Assembly: GCA_019090615.1 (NCBI GenBank)
Contig: JAHRVQ010000012.1
Location: 1 to 64,000, forward strand
Source of the DNA: Pseudomonadales bacterium
GTDB taxonomy: Bacteria; Pseudomonadota; Gammaproteobacteria; Pseudomonadales; Azotimanducaceae
Direction of reading: 5' to 3'
Length of the DNA: 64,000 bases
Positions within the stretch are counted from its first letter, which is position 1. Each line of letters starts with the position of its first letter. Position numbers and translations under genes: made by a program. Of the stretch, positions 26,017-34,769 are shown in pieces. Below the pieces are notes generated by a model, which was given only the letters and a program-made list of their open reading frames with translations, did not search any database and was not told the DNA's origin.

Positions 26017-26940
26017 TCAAATGTGTTTTCTTGACGGATGGTTTCGCTTTTTGATCCAACGTTGACCTATTTTAGCAGCATAGTCCTTTAGGGTTTTTAA
26101 AGAGCCAATGGCCCGCTGCCAAAGTGGAATTACTGAAATATGATCCTGAAACCAATGATCTGGATTAATATGCTTGTTTTCAAGCCATACTGGCAGCGAC
26201 AGATTAACATTACTCTTCATCTCGAAATGGCGAGATGCAATCCAGGTTACCAATTCAATATAATCCACAACATTGATCACACCTAAAGGAGCATTTTGCG
26301 TAGATGAGTTAATAGCGCTCAACTGATCCGTATCCGCCTGGTGGTAGAGTCGATGCTGGATAGAAGTATAATCGCTGTCCTGCAAACTTTCCGCGATATT
26401 CGCCCGGACAGGGTTCAGATCCACATATGCCATGCATGCAAGCACTGCGGGTTCATCCAGTAAAATTTGCGACCTGAACCTTCCCTCCCAAAATCTACCC
26501 GTGCAATCGTCCTCTTTGTTAGCAAACCTCGCCAATGGTTCATTAATAAAGCGCATGAACCAGGATAATGATCTCAATCTACTGCGCAATAGTTCGAATT
26601 GATACAGCTTTTTATTCTTAGCATCTCGGCCCGGACATAATTTCAACCAACGTTCAGCAACCTCCACGTCAGACCAGTCCTCTATCTCAACATTCAGCAC
26701 AATATGATAATGATTATTCAAAATCGCATAGGCACAGATCGAAATTGAAAATATTTCTGACAATTCAAATATACGCGCCTCTATCCATTCCCGTCGGTGG
26801 GAAAAATCTTTCACCGTAAATGGATCTCTGCCGCATAAAAATGATCGCCTTACACAACGCGAATAAACATGATACGTGCCGATGCCGTCTGGTGAGATTA
26901 GGTGGCTTCCTGGATAGGTCATGCGCAAACGATAATTCAT
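26017..26940 (-). CDS. IS200/REP-associated-type HUH (Y1) transposase
   Basis: 307 aa. The HUH motif His77-Tyr78-His79 is in YAILNNHYHIVL, preceded by 'GTYHVYSRCVRRSFLCG' and followed by GRFWEGRFRSQ and YVDLNPVRANIAESL. These are all marks of the single-copy Y1_Tnp proteins related to RAYTs. Such proteins nick single-stranded DNA at palindromes and are thought to spread or maintain REP-type repeats. The C-terminal 70 residues are less conserved. It has no second ORF and no clear insertion-sequence ends. Both flanks carry hairpins and repeats. Confidence 0.9.
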   Translation of the reverse strand: MNYRLRMTYPGSHLISPDGIGTYHVYSRCVRRSFLCGRDPFTVKDFSHRREWIEARIFELSEIFSISICAYAILNNHYHIVLNVEIEDWSDVEVAERWLKLCPGRDAKNKKLYQFELLRSRLRSLSWFMRFINEPLARFANKEDDCTGRFWEGRFRSQILLDEPAVLACMAYVDLNPVRANIAESLQDSDYTSIQHRLYHQADTDQLSAINSSTQNAPLGVINVVDYIELVTWIASRHFEMKSNVNLSLPVWLENKHINPDHWFQDHISVIPLWQRAIGSLKTLKDYAAKIGQRWIKKRNHPSRKHI

Positions 26941-27378: not shown

Positions 27379-28590
27379 ATGGATTTTGATGACTCACCAG
27401 AAGAAGCGCAATTTCGGGTCGATGCCACAACCTGGCTCTCTGAAAACATTCCATCTGAGGAAGAATTAACAGGGCTTGATGAAATGGCGCAAGCCAGGCT
27501 TTGGCAAAAAAGGAAGGCAGATGACGGTTGGGCCTGTATTCGTTGGCCAAAGGAATATGGAGGCCGAGGTGCCACCGCTATCGAGCAGGTAATATTCGGC
27601 CAGGAAGAGGCCAAATTTAGTCCGCCCGACACCGGTATGTTTATGATCGGTCAGGGTATGGGTGCAACCACTATGATGACCTGGGCCACCGAGGAGCAAA
27701 AACAAAAACACGTGCCAAAAATTGCCAGCGGGGAAGAAATCTGGTGTCAATTATTCAGTGAACCAGCCGGTGGCTCTGACCTTGCCGCATTACGAACACG
27801 CGCAGAAAAAGATGGCGCTGAGTGGATAATAAACGGTCAAAAAATCTGGACTTCTGGTGCGCATTATTCTGATTATGGCATCATCGTACTACGCACCGAC
27901 CCCGATGTGCCTAAACATCAGGGGCTAAGCTATTTCTATATTGATATGAAATCCCCAGGGATAGAAATAAAACCAATCAAACAAATGTCCGGTGCTTCGG
28001 GTTTCAACGAGGTCTATTTTACCGACGTTCGGGTCCCAGACGCACAACGACTAGGCGAAGTAGGACAAGGCTGGCAAGTAGCGCTTACCACCTTAATGAA
28101 TGAACGTGCCTCCATAGGTCTCGGTCGTAGTTCAGCGAACTTCAAGTCCGCCTTAAAGTTGGCCCAGGACACATATATTGACGATCAACCAGCGATTACC
28201 AACGCTGCTGTTCGTGCTAAACTGGCTAATTGGTATGTACAGGAGGCCGGCCTTAAATATACCGGTATGCGCTCAATGACAGCACTATCCAGAGGCGAAA
28301 TACCTGGCCCAGAAAACAGTATCGGCAAGCTAGTATCTGCACCTAAAACCCAGGATCTATCTTCCTTCGCGATTGATTTGATGGAACAGGCAGGTATTAT
28401 TTGGCCGCCAGGCATAGAAGACGAAAACAATATGTTCCAGACAAGTTATATGGGCGTGCCTGGATTTAGAATCGCCGGTGGTACCGACGAGATTATGGCC
28501 AACATCATTGCTGAACGGGTCCTGGGTTTACCACAGGAACCGCGTATGGATAAAGGCATGCCTTTTACCGAAGTGCCTACAGCCCAATAG
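27379..28590 (+). CDS. acyl-CoA dehydrogenase, paralogue 1
   Basis: 403 aa. N-terminal helical domain from MDFDDSPEEAQFR; signature CQLFSEPAGGSDLAALRT (about 130-147); WIINGQKIWTSG; and a C-terminal FRIAGGTDEIMANIIAERV motif. At the place of the classical Glu376 this motif has Gly (GGTDE), so the base is presumably elsewhere, as in isovaleryl-, long-chain or alpha-subunit enzymes of steroid pathways. It desaturates an acyl-CoA. GGAG precedes the ATG. It is a close paralogue of the next gene, whose sequence runs colinear throughout. Confidence 0.93.
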   Translation: MDFDDSPEEAQFRVDATTWLSENIPSEEELTGLDEMAQARLWQKRKADDGWACIRWPKEYGGRGATAIEQVIFGQEEAKFSPPDTGMFMIGQGMGATTMMTWATEEQKQKHVPKIASGEEIWCQLFSEPAGGSDLAALRTRAEKDGAEWIINGQKIWTSGAHYSDYGIIVLRTDPDVPKHQGLSYFYIDMKSPGIEIKPIKQMSGASGFNEVYFTDVRVPDAQRLGEVGQGWQVALTTLMNERASIGLGRSSANFKSALKLAQDTYIDDQPAITNAAVRAKLANWYVQEAGLKYTGMRSMTALSRGEIPGPENSIGKLVSAPKTQDLSSFAIDLMEQAGIIWPPGIEDENNMFQTSYMGVPGFRIAGGTDEIMANIIAERVLGLPQEPRMDKGMPFTEVPTAQ

Positions 28591-28631
28591 AGTGCCTACA
28601 GCTAAATTAGGCTAAATAGAGTGCCTACAGC
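28572..28631. repeat. AGTGCCTACAGC repeat copied from the gene's 3' end
   Basis: The last codons of the acyl-CoA dehydrogenase (28572-28583) recur at 28591-28602 and 28620-28631 just past the stop, separated by TAAATTAGGCTAAATAG-like sequence that also repeats internally. Confidence 0.85.
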
Positions 28632-28766
28632 GATATAGAATACCTAAAACTAAAGACGCTAACAGCGAACGAAAACCGCCTATAGAAAAATAGTTATCTG
28701 CATTTTTCGCCAAACCAGCACCCTGCGCAGCAAAATGCTAATTTAGAAATTTAAGGAGATTTACCC

Positions 28767-29981
28767 ATCGACTTTGAAGACACCCCCGAAGAAGCCCAAT
28801 TTCGAACCGAAGTTGCCGGCTGGTTACAAGCAAACAAGCTCAGTGAAGCAGACAAGCAAGGACTCGATACCATGGCCCAGGCCAGGCTCTGGCAGAAAAG
28901 AAAAGCCGATGCCGGCTGGTCATGTATTCGTTGGCCGAAAAAATTTGGCGGCCGTGACGCCAGCGCAATTGAGCAGGTCATATGGGGCCAGGAAGAATCC
29001 AAAATTAGACCGCCAGCCACTATGTTATTTATGGTCGGCCAGGGTATGGGCGGCCCCACCATGATGACCTGGGCTACCGAGGAGCAGATGCTCAAACATG
29101 TCCCCAAAATGGCCAGCGGCGAAGAAATCTGGTGCCAATTATTCAGTGAGCCTGCCGGTGGTTCTGATCTTGCAGCATTAAGAACCAGCGCCGTAAAAGA
29201 CGGCGATGAATGGATCATTAATGGGCAAAAAATCTGGACCTCTATGGCTCAATATGCAGACTTCGGCATTTTAGTACTGCGAACAGATCCTACTGTACCT
29301 AAACACCAGGGGCTAACTTATTTTTATATTGATATGAAGTCTCCCGGTATCGAAATCAAACCCATTAAACAAATGTCTGGTGCTTCTGGTTTTAATGAGG
29401 TTTTTTTTACCGATGTCAGAGTACCCGACTCACAACGCCTCGGCGAAGTAGGCCAGGGTTGGCAGGTGGCCTTAACCACCTTGATGAACGAACGTGCTTC
29501 TATCGGTAGTGGGGGCAGCTCTGCTGGCTTCAAAACTGCCATGAAACTAGCAAATGATGTTTTTATCGATGACAAACCAGCCATTCAGGACCCTTCCGTC
29601 AGAGCCAAACTGGCTGATTGGTATGTACAGGAAGCTGGGCTGAAATATACCGGTATGCGATCCGTTACGGCACTATCACGGGGTGAAGCGCCAGGACCAG
29701 AAAATAGTATTGGCAAACTTGTAGCAGCGGCCAAAACACAGGACTTATCTTCTTTCGCCATCGACTTAATGGAACAGGCAGGCATAGCCTGGACACCCGG
29801 TCTTAACGACGCCGACAACATGTTCCAGTCAAGTTATATGAGCGTACCTGGTTTCCGTATTGCTGGAGGCACTGATGAGATCATGGCAAATATCATCGCC
29901 GAACGGGTATTGGGTATGCCGCAAGAGCCCAGAATGGACAAGGGTATGCCCTTCACTGAGGTGCCAACCTCCACTACCTAG
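28767..29981 (+). CDS. acyl-CoA dehydrogenase, paralogue 2, apparent ATC start
   Basis: 404 aa if started at ATC 28767. The reading frame is colinear with paralogue 1 from residue 2 (DFEDTPEEAQFR against DFDDSPEEAQFR), and an ideal AAGGAG (28753-28758) stands 8 bases before the ATC. An in-frame stop (TAA, 28752-28754) precedes it, and no ATG, GTG or TTG lies between. The first ATG, at 28872, would remove 35 conserved residues. Otherwise the enzyme is intact: CQLFSEPAGGSDLAALRT, WIINGQKIWTS and FRIAGGTDEIMANIIAERV, again with Gly at the Glu376 position. It is either initiated at a non-canonical codon, weakly expressed, or carries a point mutation or base-call error. Confidence 0.85.
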   Translation: MDFEDTPEEAQFRTEVAGWLQANKLSEADKQGLDTMAQARLWQKRKADAGWSCIRWPKKFGGRDASAIEQVIWGQEESKIRPPATMLFMVGQGMGGPTMMTWATEEQMLKHVPKMASGEEIWCQLFSEPAGGSDLAALRTSAVKDGDEWIINGQKIWTSMAQYADFGILVLRTDPTVPKHQGLTYFYIDMKSPGIEIKPIKQMSGASGFNEVFFTDVRVPDSQRLGEVGQGWQVALTTLMNERASIGSGGSSAGFKTAMKLANDVFIDDKPAIQDPSVRAKLADWYVQEAGLKYTGMRSVTALSRGEAPGPENSIGKLVAAAKTQDLSSFAIDLMEQAGIAWTPGLNDADNMFQSSYMSVPGFRIAGGTDEIMANIIAERVLGMPQEPRMDKGMPFTEVPTSTT

Positions 29982-30012
29982 CAGCTATTTTAATACTCAG
30001 GAAGCGCATTTT

Positions 30013-30047
30013 GGCCGACAGTGAAGCCAGTTGTTTCACCTTCGGCC
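30013..30047. terminator. possible bidirectional hairpin between convergent genes
   Basis: GGCCGA...TCGGCC with an inner TGAA/TTCA pair lies between the plus-strand dehydrogenase end (29981) and the minus-strand CoA-transferase end (30089). There is no T-tract. Confidence 0.4.
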
Positions 30048-30088
30048 GAATCAGCCAAAGTATTTGCCCAACTAAACAGTTTCACCAA

Positions 30089-31309
30089 CTAAGGGGTTTG
30101 AGCAACCACCGAGTTGTCGATAAGCAAGGCAATTTCCTTAGCTGAAAAACCAAATTCAGTTAACACCGCCTCACTATGCTGTCCCACCGCTGGCGGTGGC
30201 ATATCAACACTCGGTCCATCCACAGAAGCGTCGTAGGGCGCATTAAAACACCTGATCGAGTCTTCAAAACCATAAGGTGTTAATGGCCCACTCAAAAAAT
30301 CCCGATGCTGCAACTGTTCCTGAGCTAACGCCTGAGGCAGCGACAATACAGCACTGGCTGGCACTTTACATTCACCCAGATGTGCCTGCCACTCGAATGC
30401 TGAACGTTTGGCAAAAGCTGCAATCATCAATTCTCGCATCAGCTGTCGATTTTTTATTCGGTTTTTCTCATCAGCAAAACGTTCATCGGCCAACAGACCT
30501 TCAATGCCTATGCCTATGCACAATGCCCTGGCCTGGGCATCAGTAAAGGCGGAAATCTGAATATAACCATCCCCAGTAGGAAATACATCCACCGTTGGCA
30601 ATCGTAGTTGCGTCTGATTTCCCGTTAAAACCGGCTCTATACCGGTCCGGCTCAGCATCATAAAGTTCAACGACATCATCGACATGGCTGTATCTAACAT
30701 CGCCACATCCAGGAATTGGCCATTGCCAGTATGTGACCTGCGATACAGGGCGCCAGATATAGCGATCGCAGCGTATAACCCAGTGCCGATATCCACAGAG
30801 GCAAAACCTGTCCTTAAGGGCCCAGATTCTTCTGTGCCGGTTAAATGCATCATGCCGGATGAACCCTGCACCGCTGGATCATAAGCTGCAGCATTTGCCC
30901 GCGGGCCTTTCTGCCCGTAGCCGGATATAGAACAATAAATGAGTTTGGGATTCTGTTTCGACAGCGATTCATAACTAAAACCAAGCTTATCAATCACCCC
31001 AGCCTTAAAATTCTGCACCACTACATCCGCTTGCGCCGCTAGCCTATGCATCACTGTTTTAGCATCAGGATGTTTAAGATCGATAGCCAATGACCGCTTA
31101 CCAGCATTCACGGATAAAAAAATGGCCCCCATATTAGCCGGCGACGGATCCGCAGCGTGACGAATATGCCGGCCACTCTCACCTATACCAGGAGTTTCAA
31201 CCTTAACTACATCAGCACCCAAAAAGGCTAACTGCTGGGTCGCAACGGGGCCCGCCAGCACTTGCGTGAAATCAATAACTTTTAATCCTTCAAATGCCCT
31301 GGGCATCAT
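30089..31309 (-). CDS. family III (CaiB/BaiF) CoA-transferase
   Basis: 406 aa single module. N-terminal GLKVIDFTQVLAGPVATQQL and GADVVKVETPGIGE; NAGKRSLAIDLK; catalytic Asp173 in GFASVDIGTG; then GQFLDVAML. It transfers CoA between carboxylates and likely activates a pathway intermediate. AAGGAA lies before the paired ATGATG start. Downstream on the same strand towards higher coordinates are the LLM flavoenzyme and a beta-hydroxyacid dehydrogenase gene, which may form a loose operon (33495 to 30089). Confidence 0.93.
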   Translation of the reverse strand: MMPRAFEGLKVIDFTQVLAGPVATQQLAFLGADVVKVETPGIGESGRHIRHAADPSPANMGAIFLSVNAGKRSLAIDLKHPDAKTVMHRLAAQADVVVQNFKAGVIDKLGFSYESLSKQNPKLIYCSISGYGQKGPRANAAAYDPAVQGSSGMMHLTGTEESGPLRTGFASVDIGTGLYAAIAISGALYRRSHTGNGQFLDVAMLDTAMSMMSLNFMMLSRTGIEPVLTGNQTQLRLPTVDVFPTGDGYIQISAFTDAQARALCIGIGIEGLLADERFADEKNRIKNRQLMRELMIAAFAKRSAFEWQAHLGECKVPASAVLSLPQALAQEQLQHRDFLSGPLTPYGFEDSIRCFNAPYDASVDGPSVDMPPPAVGQHSEAVLTEFGFSAKEIALLIDNSVVAQTP

Positions 31310-33629: not shown

Positions 33630-34769
33630 ATGAAATCAGTCATCTGCGATCTGTTAGGCGTAGAATTCCCCCTGGTTGCCTTTACCCACTGTCGTGACGT
33701 TGTCGTCGAAGTCAGCAAGGCTGGTGGATTTGGTGTCCTTGGTGCTGTCGGCCATACCCCTGAATCGCTGGAAATTGAGCTCAGCTGGATTGACGAGCAT
33801 ATTGAAGGTAAACCCTATGGCATTGACCTGATCGTGCCCACTAGCATGAGTGATAAAGGCGGCAGCATGACGCCCGAGGATATTCAGGCGCAGGTACCAG
33901 AAAGCCATAAACGGCATGTGGAACAAATTCTTGCCAGTCACGGGATTGATACCCACGGCTTATGGGATAGACGAATCAGCAAAAACTTTGGCAATAATAT
34001 GCGCGAGAGCGGTGCTGGATTAATTATGGATGTCGCCTTTGCTCATCCCATTAAGATGATTGTCAACGCGCTTGGCGTGCCGCCACAATCAATGCTCGAC
34101 CGGGCCCGGGAAAGCGGCGTGGTCACCGGCGCGCTCACTGGCGCGCGGGAACATGCGATTAAACATGCCGATGCTGGGGTAGATATTCTTATTGTTGCCG
34201 GCACCGAATCAGGCGGTCATTGTGGCGAAGTATCAACCCTGGTACTAGTACCTGAGGTGATAGAAAGTTTAAAAGAACATGGGGCAGATATACCCGTACT
34301 CGCAGCTGGCGGCATCGTTACCGGTCGTCAGATGGCAGCCTGCATGGCCATGGGCGCGGCCGGCGCCTGGACTGGGTCTGTCTGGCTGACCACAGCTGAA
34401 GCAGAAACAGATCCCGTTATTAAAGAAAAATACCTCGCTGCAAGTTCACGCCAAACCGTTAGATCACGCAGTCGTACCGGCAAATACACCCGTCAGTTAC
34501 GCTCCCCCTGGACCGATGCGTGGACAGAACCGGGCGCACCCGAGCCACTACCGATGCCTTTACAGGGGCTATTAAGCGGCCCTGCTTTAAACAGAGTTGA
34601 TAAGTTGGCCGCAACTGGTGATCCAGGGGCAAAAAAATTAGCCACTTTTTTTGTTGGCCAGGGTGTTGGTTTAATGAATACCACAGTGAGCGCACGTACG
34701 GTTGTGTTTGATTTTATGAAAGATTTTGCCGAAGCAAGTGAACACCTGGGCGGCATTCTGGAAGACTAA
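33630..34769 (+). CDS. nitronate monooxygenase / 2-nitropropane-dioxygenase-family flavoprotein
   Basis: 379 aa FMN TIM-barrel of the NMO family: FGVLGAVGHTPE, VAGTESGGHCGEVSTLVLVPEV and VLAAGGIVTGRQMAACMAMGA (phosphate-binding loop). The family includes enzymes annotated as 2-nitropropane dioxygenase that act as flavin dehydrogenases or reductases in catabolic clusters, for example IpdC of steroid ring degradation. Which applies here is unknown. It is transcribed divergently from the beta-hydroxyacid dehydrogenase. A strong hairpin follows the stop. Confidence 0.88.
   Translation: MKSVICDLLGVEFPLVAFTHCRDVVVEVSKAGGFGVLGAVGHTPESLEIELSWIDEHIEGKPYGIDLIVPTSMSDKGGSMTPEDIQAQVPESHKRHVEQILASHGIDTHGLWDRRISKNFGNNMRESGAGLIMDVAFAHPIKMIVNALGVPPQSMLDRARESGVVTGALTGAREHAIKHADAGVDILIVAGTESGGHCGEVSTLVLVPEVIESLKEHGADIPVLAAGGIVTGRQMAACMAMGAAGAWTGSVWLTTAEAETDPVIKEKYLAASSRQTVRSRSRTGKYTRQLRSPWTDAWTEPGAPEPLPMPLQGLLSGPALNRVDKLAATGDPGAKKLATFFVGQGVGLMNTTVSARTVVFDFMKDFAEASEHLGGILED

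Follow-up and report, generated by a model that had tools for sequence, protein, structure and literature searches.

A conserved ATC codon at the apparent start of an acyl-CoA dehydrogenase gene in a Pseudomonadales bacterium

Can a bacterial gene for a metabolic enzyme keep ATC, a very rare start codon, as its translation start, or does an ATC in the expected place of an ATG point to an error or a silenced gene? The question is raised by a 64,000-nucleotide stretch of Pseudomonadales DNA (hereafter the window), in which two acyl-CoA dehydrogenase genes stand in tandem and the second carries ATC where the first carries ATG. An earlier note on this DNA had described an AAGGAG followed 8 bases later by the ATC, a TAA in frame just upstream, and no ATG, GTG or TTG until 35 residues into the frame. 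Direct reading of the sequence confirmed these features (Table 1), and alignment with the paralogue placed the ATC in the column of its ATG, as had also been claimed. From stop to stop, the frame covers 28755-29981, with its own stop codon at 29979-29981. The note had set two readings side by side, namely that the ATC start is used or that a mutation or sequencing error has occurred. Comparison with orthologues makes it very probable, in our assessment, that translation of the dehydrogenase starts at AUC 28767.

Table 1. Features of the proposed ATC start and its surroundings, in window coordinates.
Feature	Position	Strand	Basis or remark
Acyl-CoA dehydrogenase coding sequence, read from ATC	28767..29981	+	404 codons plus stop; open frame, PF02771/PF02770/PF00441 matches, ATC in orthologues
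Proposed start codon ATC	28767..28769	+	ATC in 4/4 clade members found; lies within a CCATCGA block
Shine-Dalgarno sequence AAGGAG, 8 bases 5' of ATC	28753..28758	+	Duplex -9.2 kcal/mol
In-frame stop TAA	28752..28754	+	Closes the frame upstream; four codons between TAA and ATC
First standard in-frame start, ATG at codon 36, judged internal	28872..28874	+	Missing in G266, G022 and G057
Tandem paralogue with ATG start	27379..28590	+	81% identical; sister of the ATC clade

The 404-residue protein read from the ATC belongs to the acyl-CoA dehydrogenase family, with the N-terminal, middle and C-terminal domain models all above their curated cut-offs (PF02771, 52.9 against 22.9 bits; PF02770, 73.1 against 33.3; PF00441, 81.9 against 22.4). 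Its best NCBIfam match is the pimeloyl-CoA dehydrogenase large subunit (TIGR03204), though the score of 225 bits lies far below the equivalog cut-off of 623.85 and places the protein outside that group. An AlphaFold2 model of modest overall quality (mean pLDDT 73.9, pTM 0.63) predicts that residues 7-23 form a helix. Its mean pLDDT is 73 over residues 1-10 and lies at 91-95 in the three blocks that make up residues 11-40.

The arrangement at the start carries little weight when taken by itself. The pattern AAGGAGN5-10ATC occurs twice on the two strands of the window, against 2.44 occurrences expected from shuffled sequence; the motif alone is at chance level, and it is the comparison with orthologues that decides. 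The Shine-Dalgarno sequence is likewise good but ordinary: its duplex of -9.2 kcal/mol compares with a mean of -8.15 in 35 close ATG-started relatives. The window ATC rises above chance because ATC was found in all four members of its clade that we recovered.

Whole-genome searches covered 58 relatives, 206 genomes of the family, 390 of the order, 369 of the class and two of a second family, in sets that overlap and were searched at different thresholds. After the window gene itself, the nearest matches came from three genomes designated G266 (84% identity), G022 (84%) and G057 (82%), and all three carry ATC at the start column, so the orthologue comparison that the earlier note had proposed came out in favour of a used ATC start. 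G022 and the window genome are members of one family; G057 and G266 fall in a single genus of another family in the same order. Each ATC is preceded by a Shine-Dalgarno sequence at normal spacing (AAGGAG-8-ATC in G266, GAGGAG-7-ATC in G022 and AGGGAG-8-ATC in G057), giving a range of 7-8 bases and -8.4 to -9.3 kcal/mol across the four genes.

To place these genes among their homologues, we tallied the start column and built a tree. Among 118 distinct start regions from homologues of at least 49% identity, a count that omits lower-identity alignments, those not beginning at residue 1 (e.g., L082, L109 and L113), duplicates and regions too near a contig end, the column holds ATG in 109, ATC in 4, TTG in 4 and GTG in 1. 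TTG was seen at this column in four alphaproteobacterial homologues (L054, L055, L056 and L060) and GTG in a second paralogue of the window genome (L003); as these TTG and GTG rows show, weaker starts recur in the part of the family examined. In the tree, computed from 48 distinct proteins of at least 59% identity with the first residue removed, the four ATC genes cluster in a single clade (support 100/99), and the ATG-started paralogue of the window is its sister (96/90). Judged from these alignments, a non-standard codon at the putative start column is conserved in the orthologues, with ATC in four of the four clade members found, and the history of the clade is most simply read as a single origin of ATC followed by retention. 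The clade comprises four known genes, and those of G266 and G057 share a genus. No further members were found among plasmids at E 1e-100 (best match 50.6%) or, apart from the window gene, among the 369 sampled genomes of the class at E 1e-190. The matches listed in a GTDB contig scan, from which near genomes are possibly missing, likewise included none, the best listed standing at 75%.

These comparisons bear directly on whether the codon could be explained by an error in sequencing or assembly, or by a recent mutation of ATG to ATC that is silencing the gene in the window genome. ATC is one base away from the paralogue's ATG, the window genome is a draft of 92 contigs (all four genomes with an ATC gene are multi-contig drafts), and an ATG-to-ATC change of this sort appears in a disrupted Neisseria gene described in the cited part of PMC10210955. 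Against this stands the recurrence of the same ATC in three other genomes from two families, at a synonymous divergence near saturation and with low nonsynonymous change. Pooled over the four ATC genes, pS reaches 0.71 for codons 2-35 and 0.79 for the remainder of the gene; the G266-G057 pair is less diverged, at 0.53 and 0.71. Synonymous divergence of this order together with little nonsynonymous change indicates that the ATC genes are old and still under selection. An ATC shared over such a distance leaves error or recent mutation highly improbable, and the codon looks like a conserved feature of these genes.

We also asked how unusual the conservation of this one codon is. Isoleucine occupies 17 other columns in all four ATC genes, and at only one of the 17 is the codon ATC in all four; taken by itself, this comparison would speak weakly for a preference for ATC over ATT or ATA. 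More broadly, the same codon is kept at 37 of the 265 columns at which the four genes share a conserved degenerate residue. Around the start, the seven bases CCATCGA, which include the ATC, are identical in all four. The CC directly before the start, present in 4/4 ATC genes against 2/35 close ATG relatives, owes something to shared ancestry, which contributes to its presence in all four.

A second alternative is that initiation occurs further downstream, at the standard codons ATG36 (window gene) and TTG20 (the others), yielding an N-terminally shortened protein. The ATG at 28872 is in frame and, a point absent from the earlier note, is preceded nine bases upstream by AAGGA (28858-28862), whose duplex of -6.3 kcal/mol is weaker than the -9.2 kcal/mol before the ATC; moreover, ATC works as a start in E. 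coli at a reduced rate, as reported in the cited portion of PMC13068326. Yet no standard start within the first 75 codons is common to the four genes: ATG36 occurs in the window gene only, TTG20 only in G266, G022 and G057, and ATG68 and GTG71 in G057. In G266 and G057, the scan found no Shine-Dalgarno-like letters before TTG20. The codons that such a start would leave untranslated also behave as coding sequence. In codons 2-35, pN/pS is 0.24 among the ATC genes; three control sets, each made up of four standard-start relatives (12 hand-picked genes in all, 11 with ATG and one with GTG), gave higher values of 0.39, 0.35 and 0.29, and the stretch before Met36 is therefore constrained as protein, as it is in those relatives. 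With the ATC start, the PF02771 match runs from profile position 1, at residue 6, whereas with Met36 it begins only at position 37 of 113. Initiation at Met36 would thus drop the first 36 of the 113 positions of the N-terminal domain model, and would also drop the helix predicted at residues 7-23. A downstream start is very unlikely on these grounds, and we disfavoured ATG 28872 in particular, as it is missing in three orthologues and lies behind codons under purifying selection.

Could the ATC instead be an internal isoleucine codon, read from a start further upstream or from another frame by way of a frameshift? The G022 gene offers some room for this, as its frame is open for 63 codons 5' of the ATC and includes GTG at -12, TTG at -21 and TTG at -58. 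The duplexes before these codons are 0.6, -4.7 and 0.4 kcal/mol, respectively, versus -8.4 before the ATC. In the other three genes, four codons separate an in-frame stop from the ATC (TAA in the window gene and G266, TAG in G057), and across all four the leader shows no conservation beyond the Shine-Dalgarno region, having diverged upstream of it. A standard upstream start is possible in the G022 gene alone, going by its open frame; for the clade, an upstream or frameshifted start has hardly any likelihood.

Initiation at the ATC itself could, in principle, be served by a specialised initiator tRNA bearing the anticodon GAU, which would read AUC by full pairing and would account for ATC being kept rather than ATT. 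We searched for the initiator-tRNA pattern CGGGCTNATAACCCG and found five exact matches in the window genome (G000), G022, G057 and G266; all five carry CAT and were called tRNA-Met(cat) by ARAGORN. One-mismatch matches with GAT occur once in G004 and once in G266, and neither was called a tRNA, though a strongly divergent tRNA would escape the pattern. The pattern is absent from G001, a genome in which no ATC-started copy was found. With every exact match being CAT, no special decoder is indicated and AUC would be decoded despite a mismatch at its third base; the chance of a GAU initiator is extremely small.

The simplest mechanism for initiation at AUC 28767 is therefore mispaired and presumably IF3-sensitive. 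The Shine-Dalgarno sequence would place the 30S subunit at the AUC, and the ordinary CAU initiator tRNA would pair with its A and U and mispair at the third base; with this tRNA, the first residue would be methionine. Because IF3 acts against a mismatched third base, a low output is expected, one that increases as IF3 activity drops, in the manner of infC and sigR. In a reconstituted system, more IF3 gave a smaller full-length fraction for AUC/UAU, AUC/AAU and AUU/CAU (PMC10158994); AUC with CAU is absent from the mismatched pairs quoted from that study, and the IF3 sensitivity of dehydrogenase translation is probable by analogy, from the codon. In evolutionary terms, the ATC would most simply have arisen once, in the ancestor of the four-gene clade, a lineage that split from the ATG-started paralogue, and would have been kept since.

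IF3 brings in its own gene, infC, which starts with ATT in E. coli and ATC in Streptomyces, according to the cited part of PMC5472188. In the genomes studied here, with starts called from position and Shine-Dalgarno sequence, the apparent infC start is ATT in the window genome (locus L135) and G022 (L132) and ATC in G057 (L131) and G266 (L130); in G022, an ATG also lies in frame 14 codons past the apparent ATT start. The infC ATC of G266 and G057 is preceded by CC, like the dehydrogenase ATC. A further candidate for a non-standard start appeared in G022, where a small flavodoxin-like gene, named by eye (L153, G022:C191, 434-898, minus strand), has ATA at its start column. ATG occupies this column in two of the four homologues recovered, and the first in-frame standard start follows 19 codons after the ATA; the ATA, observed in a single genome, may be another non-standard start in G022.

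Whether the dehydrogenase ATC does more than permit initiation is a further question. It could be a retained regulatory device, placing the dehydrogenase under IF3 control so that it follows initiation-factor status along with infC, with CCATCGA tuned accordingly; we put this forward tentatively and regard it as rather doubtful. The Shine-Dalgarno sequences of the ATC genes are not significantly stronger than those of their ATG relatives (p 0.11), so there is no measurable compensation for the ATC, and we dropped the idea that a stronger Shine-Dalgarno sequence offsets it. Lower structure around the start of the ATC genes was also not significant (p 0.08).

The surroundings of the gene vary among the genomes. 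In the window, the ATC gene begins 176 bases after its ATG paralogue and is followed, on the other strand, by genes that look from their translations like a CoA-transferase and a luciferase-like monooxygenase. The ATC gene of G022 has neighbours on the opposite strand on both sides, and the next gene upstream in G266 is divergent; these orientations make coupling to an upstream gene unlikely as an explanation. A search for a sigma-70-type promoter in window positions 28400-30100 returned no match. Just before the tandem dehydrogenases, an open reading frame on the minus strand (26017-26940) resembles, by eye, a REP-associated (Y1) transposase. Close to the ATC gene, both the window (33630-34769) and G266 (L154, 7463-8617) have a similar gene that resembles, again by eye, a nitronate monooxygenase; in G057 (L155, 1595-2875) such a gene lies about 14 kb from the ATC gene, a trace of a shared neighbourhood.

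Our literature search found no paper on an acyl-CoA dehydrogenase with an ATC start. Conserved non-standard starts as such are already known, in infC, sigR and Listeria rnhC, and the dehydrogenase is unusual as a metabolic gene. The closest parallel is infC itself, in which, per the cited part of PMC5472188, an IF3-autoregulated AUU or AUC start likewise puts an isoleucine-type codon at a conserved position behind a Shine-Dalgarno sequence. There the gene encodes the regulator and here a metabolic enzyme, and infC is mixed in our four genomes (two ATT, two ATC) while the dehydrogenase has ATC in 4/4. Streptomyces sigR offers a conserved, C-ended non-standard start with a third-base mismatch outside infC: its GTC start is IF3-repressed and conserved in 32 of 34 Streptomyces (PMC5472188, in the part cited). 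It differs in codon and in encoding a stress sigma factor, and it was studied experimentally (PMC5472188), whereas the dehydrogenase start is proposed from sequence alone. The gene for ribosomal protein L12ae in the archaeon Staphylothermus marinus resembles our case in that its ATC was inferred by aligning homologues for want of a valid start, yet it is one gene in one genome, and cross-genome conservation is not described in the cited part of that report (PMC2678158). Within the window, the ATG paralogue is 81% identical and shares the domains and the N-terminal column, differing by its ATG start. The rnhC product is of the RNase H type. In Listeria, rnhC has a fixed ATC start, like the dehydrogenase, and that start is experimentally confirmed according to the part of the paper cited (PMC13068326); the protein is a different one and the host is Gram-positive.

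Together, these comparisons have a practical side. Annotation depends strongly on the assumption that only ATG, GTG and TTG can serve as starts (PMC5472188, in the part cited), and the start assigned to the ATC gene is therefore likely to be wrong, losing 35 residues in the window genome and, in the others, either losing 19 or extending the gene upstream. The adjoining ATG paralogue provides a natural control for the ATC gene. Few bacterial genes are known to keep an IF3-disfavoured start, and a conserved ATC start in an ordinary metabolic gene would add one to their number.
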